A model generated the notes under the pieces. That model was not told the origin of the DNA. It saw nothing but the letters and a program-made list of their open reading frames with translations, and searched no databases. From positions 2,604,001-2,668,000 of the forward strand of contig NZ_CP092104.1 in assembly GCF_016918765.2 (NCBI RefSeq): a stretch of DNA of 64,000 nt. The letters run 5' to 3'. The DNA is from Flagellatimonas centrodinii. GTDB taxonomy: Bacteria > Pseudomonadota > Gammaproteobacteria > Nevskiales > Nevskiaceae. Shown one piece after another: positions 30,345 through 40,347 of this stretch; within the stretch, counting starts at the first letter, position 1, and the number at the start of each line of letters is the position of its first letter. The position numbers and the translations under genes are program-made.

Positions 30345-32759
30345 ATGGCAGGGCAAACGAACCTGCATGATGCCGTGTCCCAGATGCGCCTGGTCGGGCT
30401 GCTGGTCGACGAACATGACCTGCGGATCGGCAAGCTGCACCGCGTCCGCGTCGAGGGCGAGGGGCGCGAGAAGAAGGGCTGGTACTACCTGCACGAGGTG
30501 ACCGCCGGTGACGGCGACCTGCTGATCGTCGGCAGCTTCGGCGTGTTCCGCGGGGCGGACCACGACAAGCATCAGGTCAAGCTGCCGCGCGACGAGCGCA
30601 TGAGCCGCGACCAGATCGAGTCGCTGCGCCGCCGGCTGAAAGAGGACCGCAAGCGCGCCGAGCAGGACCGGGCGCGGGAGCACGAGCGCGCCGCCCTGGC
30701 TGCAGCCGCTGCCTGGGCCAAGTGCAGCGAAGATGGCGACGCCGAGTACCTCCACCGTAAGGGGGTGGGGGCGCACGGCGTGCGTTTCTCGCCGGGCGGC
30801 GCGCTGGTGATCCCACTGATTGACACCGGCGGCAAGATCCACGGCCTGCAGGTCATCCGCAGCCGCGCAGCAGCCAGGGGCGACAGGCGCAAGGAAAAAG
30901 AGTTCTGGCCGGCGGGCCTCGCGGTCAAGGGTCATTTCCACCTGATCGGGACGCCAGTGTGGGTGGTGATCATCGCCGAGGGATACGCCACCGCCGCGAG
31001 CATCCATGAGGCCACCGGCCTGCCGGTAGCCGTCGCCTGGTCAGCCAACAACATCGCAGCCGTGGCACGCGAGCTGCGCCAGCGGTACAAGCGCGCGCGC
31101 ATCCTGATCGCCGGGGACGACGACAACCTCCAGAAGTGCCGCGACCCCGACTGCAAGGCGCGGATCGTGCTCAACGATCACCCGAAGGTCTGCCCGCACC
31201 ATGGCGGCGAGCACCGCGCCACCAACGCCGGCATGGTCAATGCCAGCGCAGCTGCGATGGAAGTGGGCGGGGCCTGGCTGCTGCCGACGTTCTACGACGA
31301 GGCCGACCGCCGCCGGCGCTTCCTCGAGCGCGGCGCCAAGGTGAACGACTTCAACGATCTGCACGCCGCCGAGGGCCTCCACCTGGTGCGGGTGCAGATC
31401 GAGCGCAAGCTCCACGAACTGGGCTGGGCGCCCCCCCGCGCGCGCTCCACCACCGAACACGAGGGGCCGGGGAAAGCGCCGCTGCAGCCGATCGAAACCC
31501 TCGATGAGTTGCTCGAGCGATACGCCCTGGTCTACGGCGCGGGCGGCACGGTGTTCGACCGGCAGGAGCATTGCATGCTCGCCCTGGGCGACATGCGGGA
31601 CGCCTGCATCACGCGCGACCTGCACCGCGCCTGGGCCGAACACCCGGACCGGTCTATCGTCCGCCTCGAGGAGGTGGGCTTCGACCCCACCGGCCTCGAC
31701 GACCGCATCCAGTGCAACCTGTGGGGTGGGTGGCCCACGGTCCCGCGCGAGGGCAAGTGCGACCGCCTGCTCGAGCTGCTCTATCACATGTGCACCGCCG
31801 AAGCCGAGAACGTCGACGGCCTATTCCAATGGGTGCTCAAGTGGATCGCGTACCCGCTGCAGCACCCGGGCGCCAAGATGAAGACGACCGTGGTGATCCA
31901 CGGGCCGCAGGGCACCGGCAAAAATATGTTCTACGAAGCGCTGATGAAGATCTACGGCGAGTACGGCCGCATCATCGATCAAAGCGCAATCGAGGACCGG
32001 TTCAACGATTGGGCCTCGAAAAAGCTGTTCCTGATCGCCGACGAAGTGGTCGCGCGGTCCGATCTCTACCACGTCAAGAACAAGCTCAAAGCATTCATCA
32101 CCGGCGACAACATCCGCATCAATCCCAAGAACATGGCGGCCTACAACGAGCGGAACCACGTCAACATCGTGTTCCTCTCGAACGAGCAGATGCCCGTCGT
32201 GCTCGAGGAGGACGACCGCCGGCACGCCGTGATCTGGACACCGAAGAAGCTCGGCGGCGACTACTACCGCGCGGTGCTGCAGGAGATCCAGGACGGTGGT
32301 ATCGCGGCGCTGCATCACTACCTGCTCAATCTCGACCTCGGCGAATTCGATGTCGGCACCCTGCCGCCGATGACAGCTGCCAAAGCGGAGCTGATCCAGC
32401 TCAGCCTGGACAGTACCTCGCGGTTCCACGCCGAGCTGACCGCTGGCGAGATCGGCGGGGTGAGGGCGGGTGCTGTTTTGTCGCAGGACCTGTACGAGCT
32501 GTACAAAAGCTGGTGCAACCGCAGCGGGCACCGAGCAGCACCCATGCCCAAGCTCGTCAGCGTCCTCAAGCGGCGGCACGAGGTGCCGGATGCGCGCAAG
32601 CGCTACCTCGGCACTGTCGGCATGGAAGGCCCCCACGGCATCCTGTTTTTCAATGGCGCCGAGTGCCCGCCGGGCGCCACCGAGGCAGCGTGGCTCGGCG
32701 AAGAGATCCGAGGCTTTCGCCTGGCCATCAACGACTATAAAGGGGGCGCCCATGCGTGA
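30345..32759 (+). CDS. Phage replication protein: Toprim primase-like plus SF3-type helicase
   Basis: 804 residues. N-terminal region, then a Toprim domain with the glutamate in IIAEGYATAASI (about residue 211) and the acidic IAGDDDN (about 254). A zinc-binding insert CRDPDC...CPHHGGEH (about 264-288) follows. The C-terminal half (DUF5906/D5-like) has Walker A GPQGTGKNMF (about 519-528), Walker B LFLIADEV (about 562) and a sensor-like IVFLSNEQMP. It probably unwinds and primes phage DNA. It ends at the iteron structure 32776-33002, a natural place for its origin. Confidence 0.9.
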   Translation: MAGQTNLHDAVSQMRLVGLLVDEHDLRIGKLHRVRVEGEGREKKGWYYLHEVTAGDGDLLIVGSFGVFRGADHDKHQVKLPRDERMSRDQIESLRRRLKEDRKRAEQDRAREHERAALAAAAAWAKCSEDGDAEYLHRKGVGAHGVRFSPGGALVIPLIDTGGKIHGLQVIRSRAAARGDRRKEKEFWPAGLAVKGHFHLIGTPVWVVIIAEGYATAASIHEATGLPVAVAWSANNIAAVARELRQRYKRARILIAGDDDNLQKCRDPDCKARIVLNDHPKVCPHHGGEHRATNAGMVNASAAAMEVGGAWLLPTFYDEADRRRRFLERGAKVNDFNDLHAAEGLHLVRVQIERKLHELGWAPPRARSTTEHEGPGKAPLQPIETLDELLERYALVYGAGGTVFDRQEHCMLALGDMRDACITRDLHRAWAEHPDRSIVRLEEVGFDPTGLDDRIQCNLWGGWPTVPREGKCDRLLELLYHMCTAEAENVDGLFQWVLKWIAYPLQHPGAKMKTTVVIHGPQGTGKNMFYEALMKIYGEYGRIIDQSAIEDRFNDWASKKLFLIADEVVARSDLYHVKNKLKAFITGDNIRINPKNMAAYNERNHVNIVFLSNEQMPVVLEEDDRRHAVIWTPKKLGGDYYRAVLQEIQDGGIAALHHYLLNLDLGEFDVGTLPPMTAAKAELIQLSLDSTSRFHAELTAGEIGGVRAGAVLSQDLYELYKSWCNRSGHRAAPMPKLVSVLKRRHEVPDARKRYLGTVGMEGPHGILFFNGAECPPGATEAAWLGEEIRGFRLAINDYKGGAHA

Positions 32760-33123
32760 CCGGGCGCGTCCACCCGTGCGGCATGTGCGGCATCCTGTGC
32801 GGCATGCTGTGTGGCATGAAACCTATATGGGGCGGGGATTGTGCGGCATGTGCGGCATGCAGCGTGCGCCCGCATGTGCGCCTGCGCGTGCCCGCGCGTG
32901 TGCGCAGCGCGCGCCCGCGAAGGCGCACATGCCGCACATGCCGCACAGCGCCCGCCGCTGCGTTGTTTCATGCCGCACGGCATGCCGCACGGCATGCCGC
33001 ACCGGCGCACCCATCGTGGTCCACGTGGAACATCGACCGATCCGTAGGCGTACTTTTTTCGCGCGCGCGTCTTTTCACTCCATTGCGTGCTCGAAAGAAA
33101 ATGTTGTTGGAGGTTGTAAATGA
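32752..33123 (+). CDS. Low-complexity reading frame across the iteron structure
   Basis: 123 residues from ATG 32752, overlapping the primase end by 8 bases, with its stop overlapping the terminase start by ATGA. These tight joins favour a real gene, but the sequence (PVRHVRHPVRHAVWH, CGMCGM, TACRTACRTG) is what the DNA repeats force. The last 35 residues, HRPIRRRTFFARASFHSIAC, are less repetitive. I think the DNA structure is primary and coding secondary or absent. Confidence 0.3.
   Translation: MRDRARPPVRHVRHPVRHAVWHETYMGRGLCGMCGMQRAPACAPARARACAQRAPAKAHMPHMPHSARRCVVSCRTACRTACRTGAPIVVHVEHRPIRRRTFFARASFHSIACSKENVVGGCK
32776..33002. repeat. Mirror-symmetric iteron array (candidate origin or packaging site)
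   Basis: The 9-mer GTGCGGCAT occurs at 32776, 32785, 32797, 32809 (one mismatch), 32841 and 32850. Its complement ATGCCGCAC occurs at 32929, 32938, 32970, 32982 and 32994. Spacings are mirrored exactly: 12, 12, 32, 9 in each arm. The arms 32785-32858 and 32929-33002 are both 74 bp and about 80 percent identical as an inverted repeat, around a 70-bp GC-rich centre. It sits between the primase-helicase and the small terminase gene. Confidence 0.9.
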
Positions 33124-33725
33124 GCGGGGGCGCCATTCCTGCGGCGTGTGGCCTCAAGGCGTTCGCGGCTATTGCCGGCTTCAAGCCCAGCTACATCACC
33201 CAGCTCAAAAAAGATGGGCGCCTGGTGCTCACGCCGGACGGGCGGCAAGTGCGGGTTGCGGAATCGCTGGCGCGCATCAAAGAGACGCGCGACCCGTCGA
33301 AAGAGGGCGTCGCCAACCGGCATGCTGCCGCCCGCGCGTTGCCGCCAGCGCCGCCGCCCGAGGCGCCAGAGCGGGGTGATGACGATACGGGGGCGATCCC
33401 CGCCGACCCCGCGCCGGGGACTGGGCACTACCAGGAGGCTCGCGCAAAGCGCGAGCACTACCTCGCCCTGGCGGCGCAGCGCGACTACATGATCAGCATG
33501 CGGGATCTATTGCCCGCCGGCGAAGTGGAGGCATACCTGGCCGATGCAGCAACTCAGCTGCGCGCGCGGCTCGAGGGCCTGGCCGTGTTGCTCGCCCCGC
33601 AGCTGGCTGCGGAACGTGACGAGCACCGCTGCCGCGCCATCGTCGCGGATGCTGTTGAGCGTGTGCTGCACGAGCTGGAGCGCCAGTTCCTCCGCATTTC
33701 CGCTGACGAGGGCGCGAAGGGATGA
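33120..33725 (+). CDS. Terminase small subunit (Nu1-type)
   Basis: 201 residues, GGAGG 7-12 bases upstream. The N-terminal winged-helix region (GLKAFAAIAGFKPSYITQLK, KDGRLVLTPDGRQVRVAESL) is the DNA-recognition part. A Pro/Ala linker and a helical oligomerisation region (EARAKREHYLALAAQRDYM, VERVLHELERQFLRI) follow. It overlaps the large subunit start. Small subunits of this type bind a cos/pac site that usually lies just upstream of their gene, here the iteron region. Confidence 0.85.
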   Translation: MSGGAIPAACGLKAFAAIAGFKPSYITQLKKDGRLVLTPDGRQVRVAESLARIKETRDPSKEGVANRHAAARALPPAPPPEAPERGDDDTGAIPADPAPGTGHYQEARAKREHYLALAAQRDYMISMRDLLPAGEVEAYLADAATQLRARLEGLAVLLAPQLAAERDEHRCRAIVADAVERVLHELERQFLRISADEGAKG

Positions 33726-35698
33726 GCGGCCCGGTACCCGCGCTGGCCGGTGTGCTTGCACGCGCCGCCGTGCGCGAGCGGCTCGGCGCCGTCATTGGCC
33801 GCGCCGTTGCGCCACGCAAGCCGTTGACCGTCAGTGAATGGGCCGATGCAAACCGGCACCTGTCAGCCAAAGACAGCCCCGAGGCGGGGCAGTGGCACAC
33901 CTCGCGCAATCCCACGCTGCGCGAGCCGATGGACTGTTTCAGCACGCGCTCGACCGTTCGCGATGTCGTGCTGATGTTCCCCATCCAGTTTGGCAAGACG
34001 CAGATCGCGCTCAACGTGCTCGGCTACTGCATGGACCATGACCCCGGCCCGGTGATGTACGCATTGCCGGGCGAGGTCTCCATGAACAAGTGGATCGACC
34101 AGAAGTTTCAGCCCACGCTTGATGAGACGCCGGCAATGTCGCGGGCGCTCAGCACGACGAATAGCCGCGATGCATCGAACCGCCGCGAGTTCAAGGATTT
34201 CATCGGCGGCCAGCTCTACATCGAGCACGCCGGCTCTCCGTCTCGACTCAAATCCACCAGCGTTCGCACGCTTATTGTCGACGAGCTGGACGAGTTCGCG
34301 TCGACGCTGCGCGGGGGCGATGACCCGCTCGAAATGCTCAAGGGCCGCACCTCGGCGTTCCGCAGCACCTATCGCCGCCTGTATATCTCCACCCCGCAGC
34401 TGCAGGGCGTAAGCCGCACCGGCCACCTGTGGGACGAGAGCGACCAGCGCCGGTACCACGTGCCATGCCCGCACTGCGAGCACGAGCAGCCGCTGGAGTG
34501 GGGCGGGCTGCACTGGAGCACCGACGCCACCGAATGCTGGTACGCCTGCCGCGAGTGTGGCGCTACCATCGAGGAGCACCACAAAGACGCGATGATCGCG
34601 CGCGGTCGGTGGGTCGCGACCTACCCCGATCGAAAGACGCGGGGCTATCACCTCAACGCGCTGTATTACCCCATGGGCCTCGGCCCGCGCTGGCTCGATC
34701 TCGTCGAAATGTGGCGCGACGCCCAGGGCGACCCGGCCAAGCTCAAGGTTTTTGTCAACGATCGCCTGGCCGAGCTGTACGAAGACCCCGCGATGCGGGC
34801 GGTCAAGCACAACGTCATCGCCGATCGGGCCGAGCCCTACAAGCTGCGCACCGCGCCCCTTGGTGTGCTCGCCCTCACGGCCGGGGTGGACACGCAAGAC
34901 AACCGGCTTGCGGTGCACGTAGTCGGCTGGGGCAGGCGGCTGGCTGCATGGACGCTGGACTATGTCGAGCTGCCCGGCGACCCGGCCGAGGAGGCAGTGT
35001 GGCTCGCGCTCGTTGATCTACTCAACCGCCCCATCGAGCACGCCAGCGGCACCACATTGCGGCCGCTGGCCACCGCCATCGATGCCGGCGGCCACCGCAC
35101 CGAGGCGGTGAAGGCGTTCGTCCGTGCGCGGCGCATTCCGCGGCCAATGGCGATCTTCGGCGCCAAGGCGAACAACGCGCCTATCCTGAGCAAGGCGCGC
35201 GCCATGGACGTCAACTGGCTGGGCCGCACCGACCGCAACGGCGTGATGATCCACCACGTTGGCTCCGTCGCCGCAAAGCACTGGTTGTACGCGCGGCTCT
35301 CCACCGATGCCGAGAAAGCAGACGCCGATCAGCGCCTTGTTCATTTCCCGGACGAGCTGGACGAGGACTTCTTCGGCGGCATGGTTTCCGAAGTATTCAA
35401 GCCGGACAAGGGCCGGTTCGAGAAGCGCCGCGGCGCCAAGCGCAACGAACCACTGGATACCTGGGTCTACGCCTACGCTGCCGCGCATCACCCGGAAGTC
35501 CGCCTGCATCGGTTTACGCACGCGGACTGGGATGCTGCCGATGCGCGATTGCGCGCCTCAGCCGCTGCCGCAACGAGCGCGGCTTTCGCCGGCGAAAGTG
35601 CCGCCGCCTCGGCGCCGGTCGATGTTGATCCCCTCGCCGCAGCTGAGCAGGACCGCCTCGCGCGGTTCCGTGCGCTCGGCGCTCGCAATCGCCGCTAA
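33722..35698 (+). CDS. Terminase large subunit (GpA-type)
   Basis: 658 residues. GpA layout: N-terminal ATPase with a Walker A-like PIQFGKTQIAL (about residue 88), Walker B TLIVDELDEF (about 182), coupling motif STPQLQG, a zinc-like pair of CxxC (CPHC about 249, CREC about 279), and a C-terminal RNase H-like nuclease region with acidic residues (GVDTQDNRLAVHVVGWG). It packages DNA into proheads and cuts concatemers. An exact copy of the dispersed palindrome lies in the Ala-rich tail (about residue 622). Confidence 0.95.
   Translation: MSGPVPALAGVLARAAVRERLGAVIGRAVAPRKPLTVSEWADANRHLSAKDSPEAGQWHTSRNPTLREPMDCFSTRSTVRDVVLMFPIQFGKTQIALNVLGYCMDHDPGPVMYALPGEVSMNKWIDQKFQPTLDETPAMSRALSTTNSRDASNRREFKDFIGGQLYIEHAGSPSRLKSTSVRTLIVDELDEFASTLRGGDDPLEMLKGRTSAFRSTYRRLYISTPQLQGVSRTGHLWDESDQRRYHVPCPHCEHEQPLEWGGLHWSTDATECWYACRECGATIEEHHKDAMIARGRWVATYPDRKTRGYHLNALYYPMGLGPRWLDLVEMWRDAQGDPAKLKVFVNDRLAELYEDPAMRAVKHNVIADRAEPYKLRTAPLGVLALTAGVDTQDNRLAVHVVGWGRRLAAWTLDYVELPGDPAEEAVWLALVDLLNRPIEHASGTTLRPLATAIDAGGHRTEAVKAFVRARRIPRPMAIFGAKANNAPILSKARAMDVNWLGRTDRNGVMIHHVGSVAAKHWLYARLSTDAEKADADQRLVHFPDELDEDFFGGMVSEVFKPDKGRFEKRRGAKRNEPLDTWVYAYAAAHHPEVRLHRFTHADWDAADARLRASAAAATSAAFAGESAAASAPVDVDPLAAAEQDRLARFRALGARNRR
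35583..35598. repeat. Dispersed palindrome, exact copy 4 (in terminase large subunit)
   Basis: CTTTCGCCGGCGAAAG, read as AFAGES in the Ala-rich tail of the terminase. Confidence 0.95.
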
Positions 35699-35712: not shown

Positions 35713-36474
35713 ATGCTGACCATTTCACGAGACCTGGCGGGCCCCGCGCTGCGAGAGATCGAGGCATTCGAAAAGCAGCAGCGATTCGCCGAACGCTTGG
35801 CGCTGACGCGGCTCTCGATTGAAGTGCAGAAGGCCGAGCAGGTCGCTATCGCCACTGTGTTCGACCGACCCAGCAGCTTCACCCAACGCTCCGTGCTCAC
35901 GTTCGCACGACAGGAGGCCGGCGGCAACGGATTCGTGCGCGTGGTGAAGATCCGCGACCAGGCCAGCGGCGGCACCGCGCCGGACCGGTATCTCGCGCCC
36001 CAGGTCCACGGCGGCGAGCGCTCCGCAAAGCGCTTCGAGCGCGCGTTTCGGTTTGTTGATTTTCGCAACAACGCATTCCGCGACGACCAGCTCTTCGCGG
36101 TGCCCGGCAAGGGCGCGCGGCTCAACCGCTACGGCAACCTCAGCCAGGGCACGTACCAGCGCATCCTGTCGGCGCTGCGCATGCATAGTGACGATGCGTT
36201 CAACAGCAGCGCCCGCAGTCGCCGGCGCAACAAGAAGCTCCCGCAGTATTTCCTCGGCAAAGCCGGCAAGGGCAGGCGGACGCTCGCGATCTGGGAGCGG
36301 CACGGCCGCGGGCAGCGCAGCATCAAGCCCGTCCTCATCGCCGTCGAGAAAACGAACTATCGCAAGCGGTTCCCGTTCTTCGATATCGGCGCACAGGTCA
36401 TGCGCGGCCGACACAACGAGGTTCATGCCGCCGCCCTGGATGAAGCGCTGCGGACAGCGCGGAGCGGCCGATGA
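35713..36474 (+). CDS. Phage morphogenesis protein of unknown role
   Basis: 253 residues. The central and C-terminal pattern (NRYGNLSQGTYQRILSALRM, KKLPQYFLGK, KTNYRKRFPFFDIGAQVMRG) matches a group of phage structural or tail-completion proteins that I cannot name precisely. It lies directly after the terminase and overlaps the Mor-type gene by ATGA. Confidence 0.6.
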   Translation: MLTISRDLAGPALREIEAFEKQQRFAERLALTRLSIEVQKAEQVAIATVFDRPSSFTQRSVLTFARQEAGGNGFVRVVKIRDQASGGTAPDRYLAPQVHGGERSAKRFERAFRFVDFRNNAFRDDQLFAVPGKGARLNRYGNLSQGTYQRILSALRMHSDDAFNSSARSRRRNKKLPQYFLGKAGKGRRTLAIWERHGRGQRSIKPVLIAVEKTNYRKRFPFFDIGAQVMRGRHNEVHAAALDEALRTARSGR

Positions 36475-36806
36475 CCAGCTCCGCCAGTGCTCGCACGGAA
36501 CTTGACGACACCGACGATCTGCGGCCCGTGCTCGAACGCAACATCGTCGCCGTGCTCGCCGATCGGTGCGGCATGGACCCGGCTCGCGCGACACAGCTCG
36601 CCCGGGAGTCGATCGCGCGCACGCAAGGCGATGTCGGCGGCCGCCGGGTCTATCTGCGAGTGCTCAATCGGCAAGTGCGCGACCAGGCGATGCGGCTCGC
36701 GTTCGACGCACGGCGGCGAGATGCCAGTATCACCGAGAACATGGAGATGACCGCACGGGAGTTCGGTGTCTGTCAGCGGACCGTGCGCCGAGTCTGTTGC
36801 AGCTGA
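36471..36806 (+). CDS. Mor/C-family transcription activator
   Basis: 111 residues. The conserved Mor-family core is present: GGRRVYLRVLNRQVRDQAMR, LAFDARRRDASITENMEMTA and the helix-turn-helix REFGVCQRTVRRVC at the very end. In Mu, Mor and C bind dyad sequences and recruit host RNA polymerase to middle and late promoters. Here a 37-bp element with a dyad begins 12 bases after the stop and is repeated 1,617 bp downstream before the head genes, so this protein is the likely late-gene activator. Confidence 0.8.
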   Translation: MTSSASARTELDDTDDLRPVLERNIVAVLADRCGMDPARATQLARESIARTQGDVGGRRVYLRVLNRQVRDQAMRLAFDARRRDASITENMEMTAREFGVCQRTVRRVCCS

Positions 36807-36817
36807 CCGCACCAGAT

Positions 36818-36854
36818 AGAAAGTGACAATCCTTGCCTAGTTTTGTCACATGAC
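36818..36854 (+). promoter_or_regulatory. Late control element, copy 1 (before lysis genes)
   Basis: 37 bases that recur with one difference at 38435-38471. Contains the dyad GTGACAA (36823-36829) and TTGTCAC (36843-36849), 20 bp centre to centre, as expected for a dimeric activator. Dyad centre to endolysin ATG is 39 bases, identical in the second copy. No ribosome site separates it from the ATG. Confidence 0.82.
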
Positions 36855-36874
36855 GTCGCGGCACCCTGCCGTGC

Positions 36875-37462
36875 ATGAAATCGCCTCGTTCGATCATCGA
36901 CGACATCATCCGCGCCGAGGGTGACCGCTATACCAACGATCCCAGCGATAGCGGCGGGCCGACACGCTGGGGGATAACCCAGGCGACGCTTTCGCGGTAC
37001 CGGGGCAGGGCGGTGACGCCGAATGAGGTGGCGGCGCTGACGCGCGACGAGGCGGCGCAGATCTACGAGCGCATGTACTGGATCGACCCGGGCCTGCATC
37101 TGCTCGGCGAGCACTCGATGTTGATCGCGGCCGAGGTGATGGACACGGGCGTCAATTGCCCGATGCGGGCGGCGGTGACGATGCTGCAGCGGCAGCTCAA
37201 CGTCCATAATGATCGCGGCCGCCATTACGCCGACCTGGTGGTCGACGGGCGGTGCGGCGCGAAAACGGCGGAGGCGCTGCAGGCGTTCCTCGCGCGGCGC
37301 GGCACGCTCGGCGAGCAGGTGCTGTTTGTCGCGCTGAACGGCATGCAGGTCGCGTACTACACCGAGCTGGCCGAGCGCCGGGAGAAAGACGAGCGGTGGC
37401 TGTGGGGCTGGCTGCGCGTTCGCGTGGCCGACCAGGTGCGCGAGGGTATCGGCCATGGCTGA
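36875..37462 (+). CDS. Endolysin, glycoside hydrolase family 108 type
   Basis: 195 residues. The catalytic signature is near the N-terminus: IIRAEGDRYTNDPSDSGGPT then RWGIT, with the acid E15. The C-terminal part GVNCPMRAAVTMLQRQLNV...RREKDERWLWGWLRV matches the peptidoglycan-binding 3 region that goes with GH108. It cleaves the glycan backbone. No signal peptide, so it depends on the holin. First gene of the lysis cassette. Confidence 0.92.
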   Translation: MKSPRSIIDDIIRAEGDRYTNDPSDSGGPTRWGITQATLSRYRGRAVTPNEVAALTRDEAAQIYERMYWIDPGLHLLGEHSMLIAAEVMDTGVNCPMRAAVTMLQRQLNVHNDRGRHYADLVVDGRCGAKTAEALQAFLARRGTLGEQVLFVALNGMQVAYYTELAERREKDERWLWGWLRVRVADQVREGIGHG

Positions 37463-37477
37463 TCAAGCGTGCCCGCA

Positions 37478-37702
37478 ATGACGCACCGCGACCGCCTGCT
37501 GCGCGGCATCACCGGTACTAAATTCATTCTGTGCTTCGCCGCGCTCAGCGGCTCAATGCTGGGCGCGTTGCTGGGTTGGCTATCGGGTGCGGAATGGGTG
37601 GCCACCGTCAACATCACCCTCGGCATATTCGCCGGCTCCAACGTCGCCGCGACGTTTGCCCACAAACCGGCCGCAAGTGATGCCGCACCTCGCCTGGATT
37701 AA
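37478..37702 (+). CDS. Holin-like membrane protein
   Basis: 74 residues from ATG 37478 (GTG 37469 would add three). Two membrane helices: FILCFAALSGSMLGALLGWL (about 17-36) and WVATVNITLGIFAGSNVAAT (about 40-60), a short loop and a polar tail. This suits a class II-type holin that opens the inner membrane. Position between endolysin and spanins supports it. Confidence 0.7.
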   Translation: MTHRDRLLRGITGTKFILCFAALSGSMLGALLGWLSGAEWVATVNITLGIFAGSNVAATFAHKPAASDAAPRLD

Positions 37703-38156
37703 GGGCCTGTGGGCGGCGCGCTGGCAGGTGCTGGCAGCGTCGCTGGCCGTGGCGGTGGCGGTGCAAACGCTCCGGCTCGGCAGTGCCCTGGATGCGCTCA
37801 CCGCGGCCGACGCCGTGCAGGAGGCCGCGGCCGCCACCAGCGAGGTGCGCGGCCTGCAAACCGGTATCGAGGAAACCCGAACTTTTGAGGACACCGTTGA
37901 TGAAAATCGCCCTGTTGTTGAGCGCGTTGTTGAGCGTGTCGTGCGCCAGTGCGCCCCGCGTGATCCGCCAGTGCCCGAGCGCCCCAGTCGAACTGATGCG
38001 GCCGCCGCCGCCGCTGGAAACCATGCGGCAGACCGCAACGCTTTCGCCGGCGAAAGGGCATTCGCACTTGCGGTCGCTGTAGATCTCGAAAGCTGCGCGG
38101 TGGAGCTGGAACGGTTCCGCGCGCTGCAACGCTGGGTGCTGCGAAATGGCGGCTGA
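37680..38156 (+). CDS. Inner-membrane spanin (Rz-like)
   Basis: 158 residues from ATG 37680, overlapping the holin end. N-terminal anchor WQVLAASLAVAVAVQTLRLG, then a long helical periplasmic region with VDENRPVVERVVERVVRQ and a C-terminal helix. An outer-membrane spanin gene is nested in the next frame, the classic Rz/Rz1 layout. The two would fuse inner and outer membranes at lysis. Confidence 0.8.
   Translation: MPHLAWIKGLWAARWQVLAASLAVAVAVQTLRLGSALDALTAADAVQEAAAATSEVRGLQTGIEETRTFEDTVDENRPVVERVVERVVRQCAPRDPPVPERPSRTDAAAAAAGNHAADRNAFAGERAFALAVAVDLESCAVELERFRALQRWVLRNGG
37900..38082 (+). CDS. Outer-membrane spanin lipoprotein (Rz1-like), nested in Rz
   Basis: 60 residues wholly inside the Rz-like gene in another frame. 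Signal peptide MKIALLLSALLSVSC gives lipidated Cys15, followed by a Pro-rich mature peptide (RPPPPLE). An exact copy of the dispersed palindrome (38041-38056) lies in this doubly coding DNA and reads LSPAKG here and FAGER in Rz. Confidence 0.82.
   Translation: MKIALLLSALLSVSCASAPRVIRQCPSAPVELMRPPPPLETMRQTATLSPAKGHSHLRSL
38041..38056. repeat. Dispersed palindrome, exact copy 5 (in Rz/Rz1 overlap)
   Basis: CTTTCGCCGGCGAAAG in DNA coding for two proteins at once. Confidence 0.95.
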
Positions 38157-38424
38157 GGTTCTCGCTGTAGAGGTGCCGTTCTCGTTGATCCTGACGGCGT
38201 TCGTCGGCCTGCTACTGGCGGCCGTGGGGTGGTTCCTGCGGCTGACGTTCACCCAGATACAGGCCGGGATGAATGAGCTGTTTACCCGCATGCGATCGAC
38301 AGAGACCAATCAGGCCACGACGACCGAGTGTGTGCGGCATCTCGAGGCCTCGGTCGAGCGACTCAGCAAGCGCCTGGAGGCGCGTGATCGCCTCCACCAA
38401 CAGCGCCAACATCCCAATCAATAA
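38146..38424 (+). CDS. Small membrane protein with coiled coil, lysis cassette
   Basis: 92 residues from ATG 38146, overlapping the Rz stop. One membrane helix (FSLILTAFVGLLLAAVGWFL, about 12-31) then a coiled coil (HLEASVERLSKRLEARDRL). Could be a second holin, an antiholin or a regulator; no family recognised. Confidence 0.6.
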   Translation: MAAEVLAVEVPFSLILTAFVGLLLAAVGWFLRLTFTQIQAGMNELFTRMRSTETNQATTTECVRHLEASVERLSKRLEARDRLHQQRQHPNQ

Positions 38425-38434
38425 GCGATTTTTC

Positions 38435-38471
38435 AGAAAGTGACAATCTTTGCCTAGTTTTGTCACATGAC
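38435..38471 (+). promoter_or_regulatory. Late control element, copy 2 (before head genes)
   Basis: 36 of 37 bases identical to 36818-36854. Dyad GTGACAA (38440-38446) and TTGTCAC (38460-38466). Dyad centre to the gpW ATG is again 39 bases. A small inverted repeat CCGCA/TGCGG lies between element and ATG, and there is no ribosome site. Confidence 0.82.
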
Positions 38472-38491
38472 CCCGCCGCAGCCTATGCGGC

Positions 38492-38698
38492 ATGGCAACT
38501 CCCACCAACGCTGAGCTCCTCCAGACCGCCCGCGAGCAGCTGCAGCTCGCCCTGGCCGGCAAGCGGTTTCGCTGGGCGGGGCGCGAGCACGAAGCGCAGG
38601 ACGTGGGCGTGCTCACCAAGTTTATTGGGTGGGCCGAGCAGCAGGTGGCGCGTGATGCCGCCTGCACGCGGCGCCGCTTCATTTCGGTGAGCTTCTGA
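38492..38698 (+). CDS. Head-tail joining/head completion protein (gpW-like)
   Basis: 68 residues: MATPTNAELLQTAREQLQLA, then GKRFRWAGREHEAQDVG and a terminal RRFISVSF. Length, two-helix plus hairpin pattern and position directly before the portal match lambda gpW, which plugs the portal after packaging. First gene after the second late element. Confidence 0.88.
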   Translation: MATPTNAELLQTAREQLQLALAGKRFRWAGREHEAQDVGVLTKFIGWAEQQVARDAACTRRRFISVSF

Positions 38699-40347
38699 TG
38701 CAGGCCGGCGCCGCTACCGCACCGTCGTTGGTCGACCACCAGGGCCGGCCCATGGCCTCGGCCATTCGCGGGCAGGGCGCCGCGCATCACGCTGCAGATC
38801 ATCAGCGGACGGAGACCCGGCACTGGGCGCCGATGCTGAGCTCGCCGGATGTCGAGGTGCTGCCGGAGTGGGGCGACATCGTGGCGCGCACGCGCGACCT
38901 GATCCGCAACAACGGCATTGCCAGCGGCGCGGTGCAAACGCATGTCGACAAGGTCATCGGCACCAATCTGCGGCTGAGCGCAAAGCCGGACTGGCGCGCG
39001 CTTGGGCTGTCGGCCGAGTGGGCTGACGAGTGGCAGCGCAACGTCGAGGCCAAGTGGCGGCAGTGGGCCGACGATGTCGACTGCTACTGCGATGCGCGCC
39101 GCCGGCTCACCTTCAGCGGCCTGCTCGCCCAGGGCTACCGCAGCTACCTCAGCAACAACGAGATGCTCGCGACCCTGGAGTGGCTGCCGCGCAGCAAACA
39201 CCACTACGCCACGACGGTGCAGATGATCGCGCCGGAGCGGCTGAGCAACCCCGGCGATGCCACCGACCGCGACCGCTTGCGTGGCGGGGTGGAGATGGAC
39301 GAGCACGGCGCGCCGCTGGCCTATCACATCCGCGCCGGACACCCCAGCGAGTACTGGTACGACACGGTGAGCAATGGCCGCCGCTGGCGCCGGGTGCCGG
39401 CGGAAACCGCATGGGGCCGTCGCCAGGTCATCCACGTGTACGACGCCGAGGTCGGCCAGACTCGCGGCAAGAGCGTTTTCACGTCGATCTTGCCGAAGGC
39501 GAAGATGCAGGATCACTGGCAGAAAGCCACGCTGCAGGCGGCGGTGATCAACGCCATGTACGCGGCGGTGATCGAGACCAGCATGGGCTCGCCCGAGATT
39601 ATTGCCGCCCTCGGCGGCAGCGATGCTCAGTCTGCGATCAGCGGATTCATGGATATGCAGGGCGCCTACCACCAAGGCGCCGATATCCGTTTCGGCAGCT
39701 CCGGCATCGCCCATCTGGTGCCCGGTGAAAAGCTGACGCTCACCGCGCCGCAACAGCCGGTGGCTGCATTCGAGCAGTTCGAGGCTGCCGTCAACCGGCA
39801 CATCGCCGCCGGGCTCAACATGAGCTACGAGGAGCTGACGCGCGACTACACGCGCACCAACTACTCCAGCGCGCGCGCCTCAATGCTGGAGGGCTGGCGA
39901 TTCTTCATGGGCCGCCGGCATCACATTGCCGGCCGCTTTGCCACCCAGGTGTATGCGGCCTGGCTCGAAGAGGCCATCTCGCGCGGCGACGTGGAGGTGC
40001 CCACCGGCGCGCCCTCGTTCTATGAGGCAAAGAGCGCCTGGACGCGCTGCTTGTGGATCGGCGCCCCCAAGGGCCACATTGACGAGCTGAAGGAAATGAA
40101 GGCGCGCACCGAGGCGCTGGACCAGGGCACCACCACCCTCGAAAAACTGTGCATGGAGCAGGGCGAGGACTGGGAGGAGGTGATGGAACAGCGCGCCCGC
40201 GAGGAGCGCAAGCGCATTCAGCTGGGCCTGCCCGCGCGGGTTCAGCGTGCCGCCAACGGTGCCGCTGCGCGCATGGACGACCCCCAACCCGACGATGACC
40301 CCGACGCGGCTGACCGCGCCGAGCGGCAGGAGCTGGCCGATGCGTGA
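38698..40347 (+). CDS. Portal protein (lambda gpB family)
   Basis: 549 residues. Family features: RDLIRNNGIASGAVQTHVDK, WRQWADDVDCYCDARRRLTF, QTRGKSVFTSILPKAKMQDH and the distinctive YEELTRDYTRTNYSSARASM. Forms the dodecameric portal at the capsid vertex. The TGA stop of gpW overlaps the ATG, and the protease gene overlaps the 3' end by 8 bases. Confidence 0.95.
   Translation: MQAGAATAPSLVDHQGRPMASAIRGQGAAHHAADHQRTETRHWAPMLSSPDVEVLPEWGDIVARTRDLIRNNGIASGAVQTHVDKVIGTNLRLSAKPDWRALGLSAEWADEWQRNVEAKWRQWADDVDCYCDARRRLTFSGLLAQGYRSYLSNNEMLATLEWLPRSKHHYATTVQMIAPERLSNPGDATDRDRLRGGVEMDEHGAPLAYHIRAGHPSEYWYDTVSNGRRWRRVPAETAWGRRQVIHVYDAEVGQTRGKSVFTSILPKAKMQDHWQKATLQAAVINAMYAAVIETSMGSPEIIAALGGSDAQSAISGFMDMQGAYHQGADIRFGSSGIAHLVPGEKLTLTAPQQPVAAFEQFEAAVNRHIAAGLNMSYEELTRDYTRTNYSSARASMLEGWRFFMGRRHHIAGRFATQVYAAWLEEAISRGDVEVPTGAPSFYEAKSAWTRCLWIGAPKGHIDELKEMKARTEALDQGTTTLEKLCMEQGEDWEEVMEQRAREERKRIQLGLPARVQRAANGAAARMDDPQPDDDPDAADRAERQELADA

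Follow-up and report, generated by a model that had tools for sequence, protein, structure and literature searches.

A 37-bp sequence is found twice in the window, i.e. the whole 64,000-nucleotide stretch of Flagellatimonas centrodinii DNA analyzed here, once before a lysis operon and once before a head operon. Neither first ATG is preceded by a visible Shine-Dalgarno sequence; the first-pass annotation had also found no ribosome site there. Structural genes must be expressed at very high levels, and in Proteobacteria leaderless mRNAs are generally seen as poor templates for translation. Each copy of the sequence is probably (at a probability of about 0.77) a late promoter activated by a Mor-family protein, which would give a leaderless mRNA beginning at or beside the ATG of the endolysin gene or of the gpW-like gene.

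The duplicated element and its genes

The two copies differ by one mismatch and the likeness extends to 50 nt at 90%. Each displays a dyad, GTGACAA-N13-TTGTCAC, with arm centers 20 bp apart, and both dyad centers are located 39 nt 5′ of the ATG. The arrangement is thus as first described from the sequence, in the single-base difference, the arm spacing and the distance to the ATG (Table 1). The exact dyad pattern is present only at these two sites in the 3.6-Mb host genome, and a backward control pattern is found at none. Taken singly, the window dyads are marginal relative to shuffled sequences (p 0.05 and 0.04); they are nevertheless secure because of the near-identical duplication and the related phages described below.

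Table 1. Features of the window in the region of the duplicated element
Feature	Position	Strand	Remarks
Terminase large subunit TerL (gpA type)	33722..35698	+	served to find relatives
Mor-like activator gene, 111 aa	36471..36806	+	Pfam Mor, PHROG 532; directly before copy 1
37-bp element, copy 1	36818..36854	+	AGAAA + dyad + ATGAC
Dyad, copy 1	36823..36849	+	center 36836; proposed operator of the Mor-like protein
Asymmetric dyad core, copy 1	36832..36840	+	CTTGCCTAG
-10-like hexamer, copy 1	36862..36867	+	CACCCT (NANNNT); 26 bp from dyad center
Predicted transcription start, copy 1	36874..36875	+	beside or at A of ATG; predicted as first hexamer base + 12
Endolysin gene (GH108 + PG_binding_3)	36875..37462	+	first gene of lysis operon
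Further small ORFs	37469..38424	+	taken as rest of lysis operon
37-bp element, copy 2	38435..38471	+	
Dyad, copy 2	38440..38466	+	center 38453
Dyad core, copy 2	38449..38457	+	TTTGCCTAG
-10-like hexamer, copy 2	38479..38484	+	CAGCCT (NANNNT); 26 bp from dyad center
Predicted transcription start, copy 2	38491..38492	+	beside or at A of ATG; predicted as first hexamer base + 12
gpW-like head-tail adaptor gene	38492..38698	+	first gene of head operon; seed of head-gene profile
Portal gene (lambda family)	38698..40347	+	

The gpW-like product itself shows no Pfam or PHROG match. Its counterparts in three relatives (L068, L074 and L078) match PHROG 118 'head-tail adaptor', and the counterpart in Stenotrophomonas phage S1 is annotated as a head-tail adaptor. 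Among the small ORFs, 38146–38424 matches PHROG 462 'lipoprotein' and 37469–37702 has no family match in Pfam or PHROG.

The Mor-like protein

The gene just upstream of copy 1 had been assigned to the Mor/C family, an assignment that holds: its product matches Pfam PF08765 (Mor) at 25.8 bits, just over the gathering cut-off of 24.9, and PHROG 532 'late transcriptional activator'. A profile of the clade (A3) finds Mu Mor (1rr7, E = 1.2e-9) and Mu C (9l0x, E = 8.2e-7); the single window sequence used as a query finds neither. The AF2 model of the protein has a pLDDT of 87.6 and a pTM of 0.54. Its top Foldseek match is 9l0x_I, with a probability of 0.99 but an E-value of 0.11. In the VIA structure comparison 9l0x (Z 6.3, rmsd 6.1, 94 aligned) and 1rr7 (Z 5.8, rmsd 8.3, 86 aligned) rank below 2rn7 (Z 7.4), amid unrelated rows. 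By entry titles and molecule names, 9l0x and 9vw8 contain four C chains each.

Searches with the Mor protein itself found no relatives in INPHARED and none by tblastn in genome_contigs, one match in IMG/VR, apparently from the same strain, and two weak matches in 57 other genomes of the host family. Pfam Mor matches are present in 18 of 85 genomes of the host order, the window's own included. In the 19 stretches covered, the matches are mostly away from a related TerL; one of the 19 has one (tblastn).

Dyads in related phages

Relatives were found by way of TerL rather than the activator, the alignment scans covering the best 80 of 312 and the best 80 of 233. TerL reaches 50% or more at 143 other loci, which are not dereplicated; setting aside 13 with less than 450 nt following TerL leaves 130. 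A Mor-like gene is found in 110 of the 130 and in 108 its end is within 700 nt of TerL, which supports the proposed pairing of a late control element with a Mor-type activator. Hosts of the clade phages include Rhodanobacter, Stenotrophomonas, Luteimonas, Rhodoferax and Methylobacter (from record titles). Filtering for a Mor-like match of 20 bits, a head-gene profile match of 20 bits and at least 20 nt after mor gave 103 start sites. Removal of 25 that are near-duplicates or have less than 80 nt upstream left 78 non-redundant regions, two of them from the window.

A search for the element in related phages had been suggested as a check. A significant dyad (p ≤ 0.05 vs dinucleotide shuffles) precedes the first head gene in 40 of the 78 regions and 38 have none. 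Thirty of the 40 are centered 35.5–40.5 nt before the ATG (binomial 2e-23 for position). The other ten lie outside this interval; L060, L154, L172, L173, L073 and L100 do not fit the layout, and L067, S1, L065 and L054 fit it only when another AUG or another dyad is chosen. A set of 37 'primary' dyads was preselected for a distance of 35–41 nt from the ATG, a score of at least 6 and p ≤ 0.3, so that their distance is not independent evidence. In these 37 the arms occupy offsets 7–13 on either side of the center, about 21 bp apart. The arm sequences vary among the phages while the layout is kept, i.e. there are 21 distinct 7-mers among 36 half-sites. The commonest dyad core in the relatives is TTTGCCTWR. 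The core TTTGCCT was considered as an ordinary -35 and rejected, as it is about 22–23 bp from the -10, which is too far.

Ten relatives have a second site ahead of a capsid-protease gene (L056 is not counted, being a near-duplicate of L054), with the ATG 34.5–39 nt from the dyad center.

The dyad could instead act as an RNA hairpin in a read-through transcript from TerL and mor; placed at a set distance from the AUG, it would control translation or RNA processing. The fixed distance, the inverted repeats and the lack of a Shine-Dalgarno sequence would all suit such a hairpin. However G.T is found in only 3 of 259 arm pair cells, which points to a palindrome at the DNA level and not to a hairpin in RNA, and on this ground the hairpin reading was rejected as highly improbable. 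The separation of the arms by two helical turns, the recurrent T-rich asymmetric core and the -10-like hexamer at a fixed distance also speak against it.

The -10-like hexamer and the predicted start of transcription

When scores for a -10 matrix are anchored on the centers of 46 dyads, they peak at +24.5 with z = 9.4 and fall to -0.7 at +23 and -0.2 at +26. The pattern NANNNT, noticed by eye before it was counted, is located 24–26 bp from the center in 32 of the 40 significant dyads, as compared with 9.4% for random centers, in 35 of the 37 preselected dyads and in 9 of the 10 second sites. The hexamer shifts with the dyad: it is at -12 where the center is 36.5 nt from the ATG, mostly at -14 for 38.5 nt and at -15 or -16 for 40.5 nt. 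The window hexamers are poor, with 2 of 6 consensus bases, and are 26 bp from the center instead of 24.5–25; the hexamer-to-AUG distance is 7 nt in both copies. A -10-like hexamer is present and the -35 position is taken by the dyad, an arrangement that, as judged from sequence, is that of a Mor/C-type promoter.

The usual distance from a -10 hexamer to the transcription start is 6–8 nt. With the hexamer 24–26 bp from the center, transcription is predicted to begin no more than about 2 nt from the ATG in most of the phages; the dyad center then falls at about -37, or -38 for the two window copies. The first-pass annotation had proposed binding near -43 as in Mu, and from this a leaderless mRNA. 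A start at or beside the ATG agrees with the conserved -10, and it is on this, not on the Mu analogy, that the leaderless conclusion is based. The Mu register (center at -43.5) is rejected, since -10 placement gives about -37.

In the proposed mechanism, the Mor-like product would bind the dyad through both arms, which are separated by roughly two turns of the helix and centered near -37, and the bound activator would recruit the main host RNA polymerase to the weak -10, which lacks a proper -35. The first transcribed base would be the A of the ATG or one no more than about 2 nt away. Both the endolysin mRNA and the gpW-like mRNA would then be leaderless, with ribosomes recognizing the 5′-terminal AUG, and the presence of two copies would allow one activator to fire the lysis and head operons together.

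Translation start signals

A Shine-Dalgarno sequence of at least 4 nt is found at 16 of 78 head-gene starts and at 203 of 372 control genes (p = 2e-8); the shuffled level is 14 of 78, thus there is no enrichment. C precedes the ATG in 65 of the 78. The second sites are similar, with a Shine-Dalgarno sequence at 1 of 10 and C at -1 in 10 of 10. At gpW starts that have no Mor-like gene (n = 12, not dereplicated) the values are 3 of 12 and 9 of 12, respectively; neither the lack of a Shine-Dalgarno sequence nor the C at -1 is peculiar to Mor loci.

These signals bear on whether the Mor-activated promoter has a short or ordinary leader, with a start several nucleotides upstream and the AUG reached without a Shine-Dalgarno sequence. 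Among 37 loci, 17 have the hexamer at -14 to -16, from which transcription would begin at ATG-2 to -4, and in L054 the first AUG is 41.5 nt from the dyad center. A hairpin of at least 5 bp that ends beside the ATG shows a modest enrichment (23 of 78; shuffled mean 12.8, sd 3.2). Against a short leader, the hexamer is 6–8 nt before the ATG in 30 of 37 loci, matching the usual start-site distance, and both the frequent C before the ATG and the unenriched Shine-Dalgarno sequence argue in the same direction. A short leader is considered unlikely.

Proposed activator and operator

The dependence of the promoters on the Mor-like protein is suggested by gene neighborhood. Some other regulator of phage or host origin, such as a late-gene repressor, might use the dyads as its operators, with the Mor-like gene a mere neighbor. 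The operator was assigned to the Mor-like protein from DNA sequence, and covariation of the arms with the recognition helix leaves room for such a regulator: the raw Mantel correlation (r = 0.35) is reached by 0 of 1000 permutations, but with N-terminal similarity held constant the covariation is not significant (partial r = 0.089, p = 0.076). Among pairs with dissimilar N-termini, mean arm identity is 0.26 for similar helices (48 pairs) vs 0.32 otherwise (324 pairs). On the other hand, a Mor-family gene adjoins the operator across the clade, a DNA-binding family is found at a fixed place, and the poor -35 and weak -10 suggest that an activator is needed. Another regulator appears quite improbable, and the Mor-like protein remains the probable activator.

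An extension of the Mor-activated leaderless promoter to the whole tailed-phage clade seems reasonably likely. The main late mRNAs (head, capsid and sometimes lysis) would be leaderless, and a diverging Mor-family activator would straddle the -35 from half-sites 21 bp apart. Selection would pin the start codon to the transcription start while the arms drift freely, and phages of the S1 group would pass ribosomes to gpW from a 7-codon open reading frame that is itself leaderless. Coupling of the late-gene activator to the start codon throughout a clade would, if confirmed, offer a large natural experiment on why phages drop ribosome-binding leaders and when they do so. The promoter rule (dyad center, -10 at +25, AUG at +38) can be used to annotate late promoters in many uncultured phages, and the activator-operator pairs form a set for reading the Mor/C recognition code.

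Comparison with known systems

Lambda cI mRNA from PRM is leaderless: the promoter is activated and transcription begins at the AUG. PRM however serves one repressor gene, as opposed to late structural operons in a whole clade. The late promoters of phage P2 have activator dyads before several late operons, as is the case here, but the P2 activator, Ogr, is an unrelated zinc-finger protein and its site is TGT-N12-ACA near -55. Phage transcripts are described as 'often leaderless' in a passage of PMC5312081. Among PMC titles and abstract beginnings, a set with few subscription papers, none was found to describe late promoters that are leaderless and depend on a Mor-type activator.

One of the closest known systems is Mu Pm. 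The protein family is the same, the dyad replaces the -35, a -10 is present and the activator gene adjoins the operon. According to PMC4390567, the Mu Mor element is 16 bp long, with two 5-bp arms and a 6-bp spacer, and is centered at -43.5. The elements of the window and its relatives do not have this form: the arms are at offsets 7–13, the center is at about -37, the ATG is mostly 36–40 nt away and there is no Shine-Dalgarno sequence. By comparison, the primer coordinates in the same source, read against the Mu sequence, give Pm a 24-nt leader, GGGGA before the ATG and a center-to-ATG distance of about 68 nt. Mu C, also a Mor-family activator, has dyads before several late operons (Plys, PI, PP and Pmom), lysis included (PMC4287176), and in this respect the window is similar. 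Unlike Mu, which has both Mor and C, this host genome shows one Pfam Mor match.

Phage S1 (NC_011589) has a TerL that is 62–65% identical, the Mor-like gp5 after TerL, and a dyad. A -10-like CAAACT is at +24.5 and an AUG is 37.5 nt from the dyad center. Unlike the window, this AUG opens a 7-codon open reading frame that ends in TGATG, so that its stop overlaps gpW. Pfam Mor is not among the gp5 matches at E ≤ 1; gp5 matches the clade profile, which contains it, and is annotated as 'putative peptidase a'.

The Element Copies in the Prophage

Two copies of a 37-bp element are present in the prophage of the window, one before the endolysin gene and the other before the gene for a gpW-like head-tail adaptor, the first head gene. 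They differ at a single base, as the first-pass annotation had it, and the similarity extends to 50 nt at 90%. The exact dyad GTGACAA-N13-TTGTCAC, centred 39 nt before each ATG, is found at only these two sites in the entire 3.6-Mb genome. A tighter version of the dyad pattern also occurs in one IMG/VR contig, whose spacing is identical and whose genes are nearly so; this contig is probably of the same strain. Short inverted repeats, differing in sequence, end 3 nt before the endolysin ATG and directly at the gpW-like ATG. Clade-wide, hairpins beside the ATG are modestly enriched (23 of 78 regions vs 12.8).

Features of the prophage in the window (window positions)
Feature	Positions	Remark
GC-rich short repeats	32756-33120	by eye, from translations
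Terminase small and large subunits	33120-35698	
Minor-tail-like gene	35713-36474	between TerL and Mor-like gene
Mor-like gene	36471-36806	
Element copy before endolysin	36818-36854	centre 36836
Short inverted repeat	36859-36871	
Predicted RNA start	36874/36875	hexamer CACCCT
Endolysin	36875-37462	
Small ORFs	up to 38424	
Element copy before gpW-like gene	38435-38471	centre 38453
Short inverted repeat	38475-38491	
Predicted RNA start	38491/38492	hexamer CAGCCT
gpW-like gene	38492-38698	
Portal	38698-40347	then more head and tail genes
ORF of 2386 aa	45817-52977	tape-measure-like

Relatives and the Mor-like Family

The Mor protein as sole query retrieved almost nothing outside its own strain. 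Relatives were collected by TerL scans with a single protein (44 loci) and with a 14-sequence alignment, the latter against viral contigs (best 80 of 312, partly overlapping the 44-locus set); of genome contigs the best 80 of 233 were taken. Among the matches listed in these scans, 143 loci have a TerL identity of at least 50%, a set that includes Stenotrophomonas phage S1 (NC_011589), leaves out the window's own locus and is not dereplicated. At least 450 nt downstream of TerL are available in 130 of the 143. A Mor-like ORF (at least 20 bits, profile built from 21 members) is present in 110 of these 130 and ends within 700 nt of TerL in 108. Twenty loci have no such ORF, and several of them carry at that place a different small protein that is HTH-like by eye. 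A strong Mor-like match is also found in 3 of 43 loci of lower TerL identity (41.6–45.5%).

The family is diverse, with 11–31% identity to the window protein; the family profile finds Mu Mor and Mu C, whose structures are known. An AF2 model of the window protein has fairly high confidence (pLDDT 87.6), and its best Foldseek match is Mu C, a weak match. S1 gp5 (L009 5357-5677) is annotated as 'putative peptidase a' and Pfam gives just weak HTH matches; by clade profile and position it is a member of the Mor-like group.

Position and Structure of the Dyad

The 78 non-redundant upstream regions comprise 58 of gpW-like genes, 19 of a second first-gene family (member L050 matches PHROG 5774 'head-tail joining') and that of the window endolysin. 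The best inverted repeat within 80 nt before the ATG was scored against 100 dinucleotide shuffles. A dyad at p ≤ 0.05 is present in 40 of the 78 regions, and in the other 38 this stretch has no significant dyad relative to shuffles. The centre lies 35.5–40.5 nt before the ATG in 30 of the 40 (binomial 2e-23). The fixed dyad-ATG distance, which had been claimed for the two window sites, is real and general across relatives.

Ten significant dyads fall outside this range. Misfits are L060, L154, L172 and L173 (14.5–19.5 nt), L073 (50) and L100 (66). L067 has a later AUG 38 nt from the centre, in L065 another dyad fits at 36.5 nt, and in L054 an AUG is at 41.5 nt. The tenth is the dyad of phage S1, described further down.

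In the 37 dyads close to the usual position, which were selected for symmetry though not for particular offsets, pairing is 81–100% at offsets 7–13 and at most 62% elsewhere. This places the half-sites about 21 bp apart, i.e. two helical turns. The arms vary between phages, e.g. GTGACAA, GTCCACG, GGAAACG, TCTAGTT and GCGGACA. An asymmetric core, TTTGCCTWR, is frequent at the dyad centre; it is exact in 16 of 78 regions, starting 41–45 nt before the ATG.

At L148 10248, L098 10230, L164 12197, L171 12191, L179 12249 and L068 10226 a second dyad precedes the main one by 72–74 bp, roughly seven helical turns, and lies inside, at or just past the end of the Mor-like gene. It could serve autoregulation or cooperative binding.

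The −10 Hexamer and the Predicted RNA Start

Scores with a sigma-70 −10 matrix are enriched relative to the ATG only about 12–15 nt upstream (z 5.2 at −12 and 5.1 at −14; 46 regions). The signal is sharper relative to the dyad centre, with z 9.4 at +24.5 and none at +23 and +26 (46 dyads of score ≥6 and p ≤0.3, 30–66 nt from the ATG). The hexamer pattern NANNNT, noticed by eye first and counted afterwards, occurs 24–26 bp from the centre in 32 of 40 significant, 5 of 17 weaker and 3 of 21 weakest dyads, compared with 9.4% of random centres. It is present in 35 of the 37 dyads close to the usual position, and its position shifts together with the dyad.

The ATG follows the hexamer by 6–8 nt in 30 of the 37. 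When the start is taken as the first hexamer base plus 12 nt, the RNA of these 30 is predicted to begin between 2 nt upstream of the ATG and its A. In the window the distance from centre to hexamer is 26 bp, which exceeds the usual one by 1 to 1.5 bp.

Translation Signals

A Shine-Dalgarno match of at least 4 nt precedes 16 of the 78 first genes (shuffles, 14 of 78), compared with 203 of 372 other genes that have unambiguous starts in the same loci (p 2e-8). C stands directly before the ATG in 65 of 78, versus 51% of controls (p 7e-8). Among gpW-like genes of loci that have no Mor-like gene (n = 12, not dereplicated), 3 have a Shine-Dalgarno match and 9 have the C. Both traits are shared by these genes and so may be properties of the gene and not just of the promoter.

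A GC-rich stem lies within 60 nt before the ATG in 8 of these 12 genes (L080, L153 and the following six), with five T after it in L070, L072, L084, L092, L178 and L203. The sequence GGCCCCGGC stands between stem and ATG in L070, L072, L084, L092 and L203. Stem and sequence together suggest antitermination or another leaderless arrangement in these loci.

The Case of Phage S1

In S1 the gpW ATG and the dyad are 60.5 nt apart. A −10-like CAAACT is at +24.5 from the centre and an AUG at +37.5, which opens a 7-codon open reading frame, MISRMPH (L009 5734-5757, ATG ATC TCG CGG ATG CCT CAC TGA). Its stop codon shares bases with the start of gpW (TGATG). Three Stenotrophomonas prophages (L165, L166, L167) retain this AUG, its frame and the overlap, with nearby bases changed. 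The distance rule thus applies to the first AUG and not to the gene, which is what a need for the AUG at the RNA 5′ end would predict. Ribosomes would then be handed on from the short frame to gpW.

Second Sites

A whole-element similarity scan gave a further similar site in 16 of 41 loci, i.e. the window, six tandem sites and nine of ten relatives with a downstream copy; the tenth, L054, came from a separate search outside this count. In the ten relatives the ATG is 34.5–39 nt from the centre, NANNNT is found in 9, C at −1 in all 10 and a Shine-Dalgarno match in 1. The following ORF has 605–671 aa in eight (L050, L054, L096, L130, L137, L158, L159, L181) and extends past the contig end in L065 and L085. 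For the four examined, L054, L096, L137 and L159, the family matches are to capsids and capsid proteases; for the L085 fragment they are to head maturation proteases. Unlike these sites, the second copy in the window precedes lysis genes; lineages thus differ in the operons before which the operator has been placed.

Proposed Operator and Mechanism

The 259 arm pair cells comprise 245 Watson-Crick, 3 G.T and 11 other pairs. Of the 14 arm mismatches, 21% are G.T where 16% would be expected, which shows no clear preference for wobble. This, with the −10 hexamer at a fixed distance, argues for the dyad as an operator on DNA. Most likely the fixed distance marks activator-dependent promoters that start at the start codon and would make the late mRNAs of a broad clade of phages leaderless.

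PMC4390567 and PMC4287176 describe Mu Mor as taking the place of the −35, with the alpha and sigma C-terminal domains required for activation. A Mor-like dimer, or two dimers, would occupy half-sites near −47 and −27, on either side of the core; at a guess, the conserved G-x-R-x-Y segment of the protein may read this core. L074 and L102 have the recognition helix SRRT and the arm GTGCCA in common, though the proteins are otherwise dissimilar. Such single cases are suggestive of helix-arm covariation; a partial Mantel test for it was not significant.

The Mu Mor operator differs in arm spacing from the clade dyads, and Mu Pm has a 24-nt leader with GGGGA before its first gene, unlike the leaderless starts predicted here. 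From sequence, these promoters are predicted to be a variant of the Mor/C type.

Other Features of the Prophage

About ten relatives have a weak match (24–30% identity) to the minor-tail-like gene a short way upstream of the small terminase. The 2386-aa ORF, tape-measure-like in its size and place, carries DLDAEFARRRQANADNAEALLALDELYAI five times, and the copies recur every 84 aa exactly. GC-rich short repeats stand directly before the small terminase gene in S1 (L009 2481-2710) and likewise in the window, and are possible packaging-site repeats.
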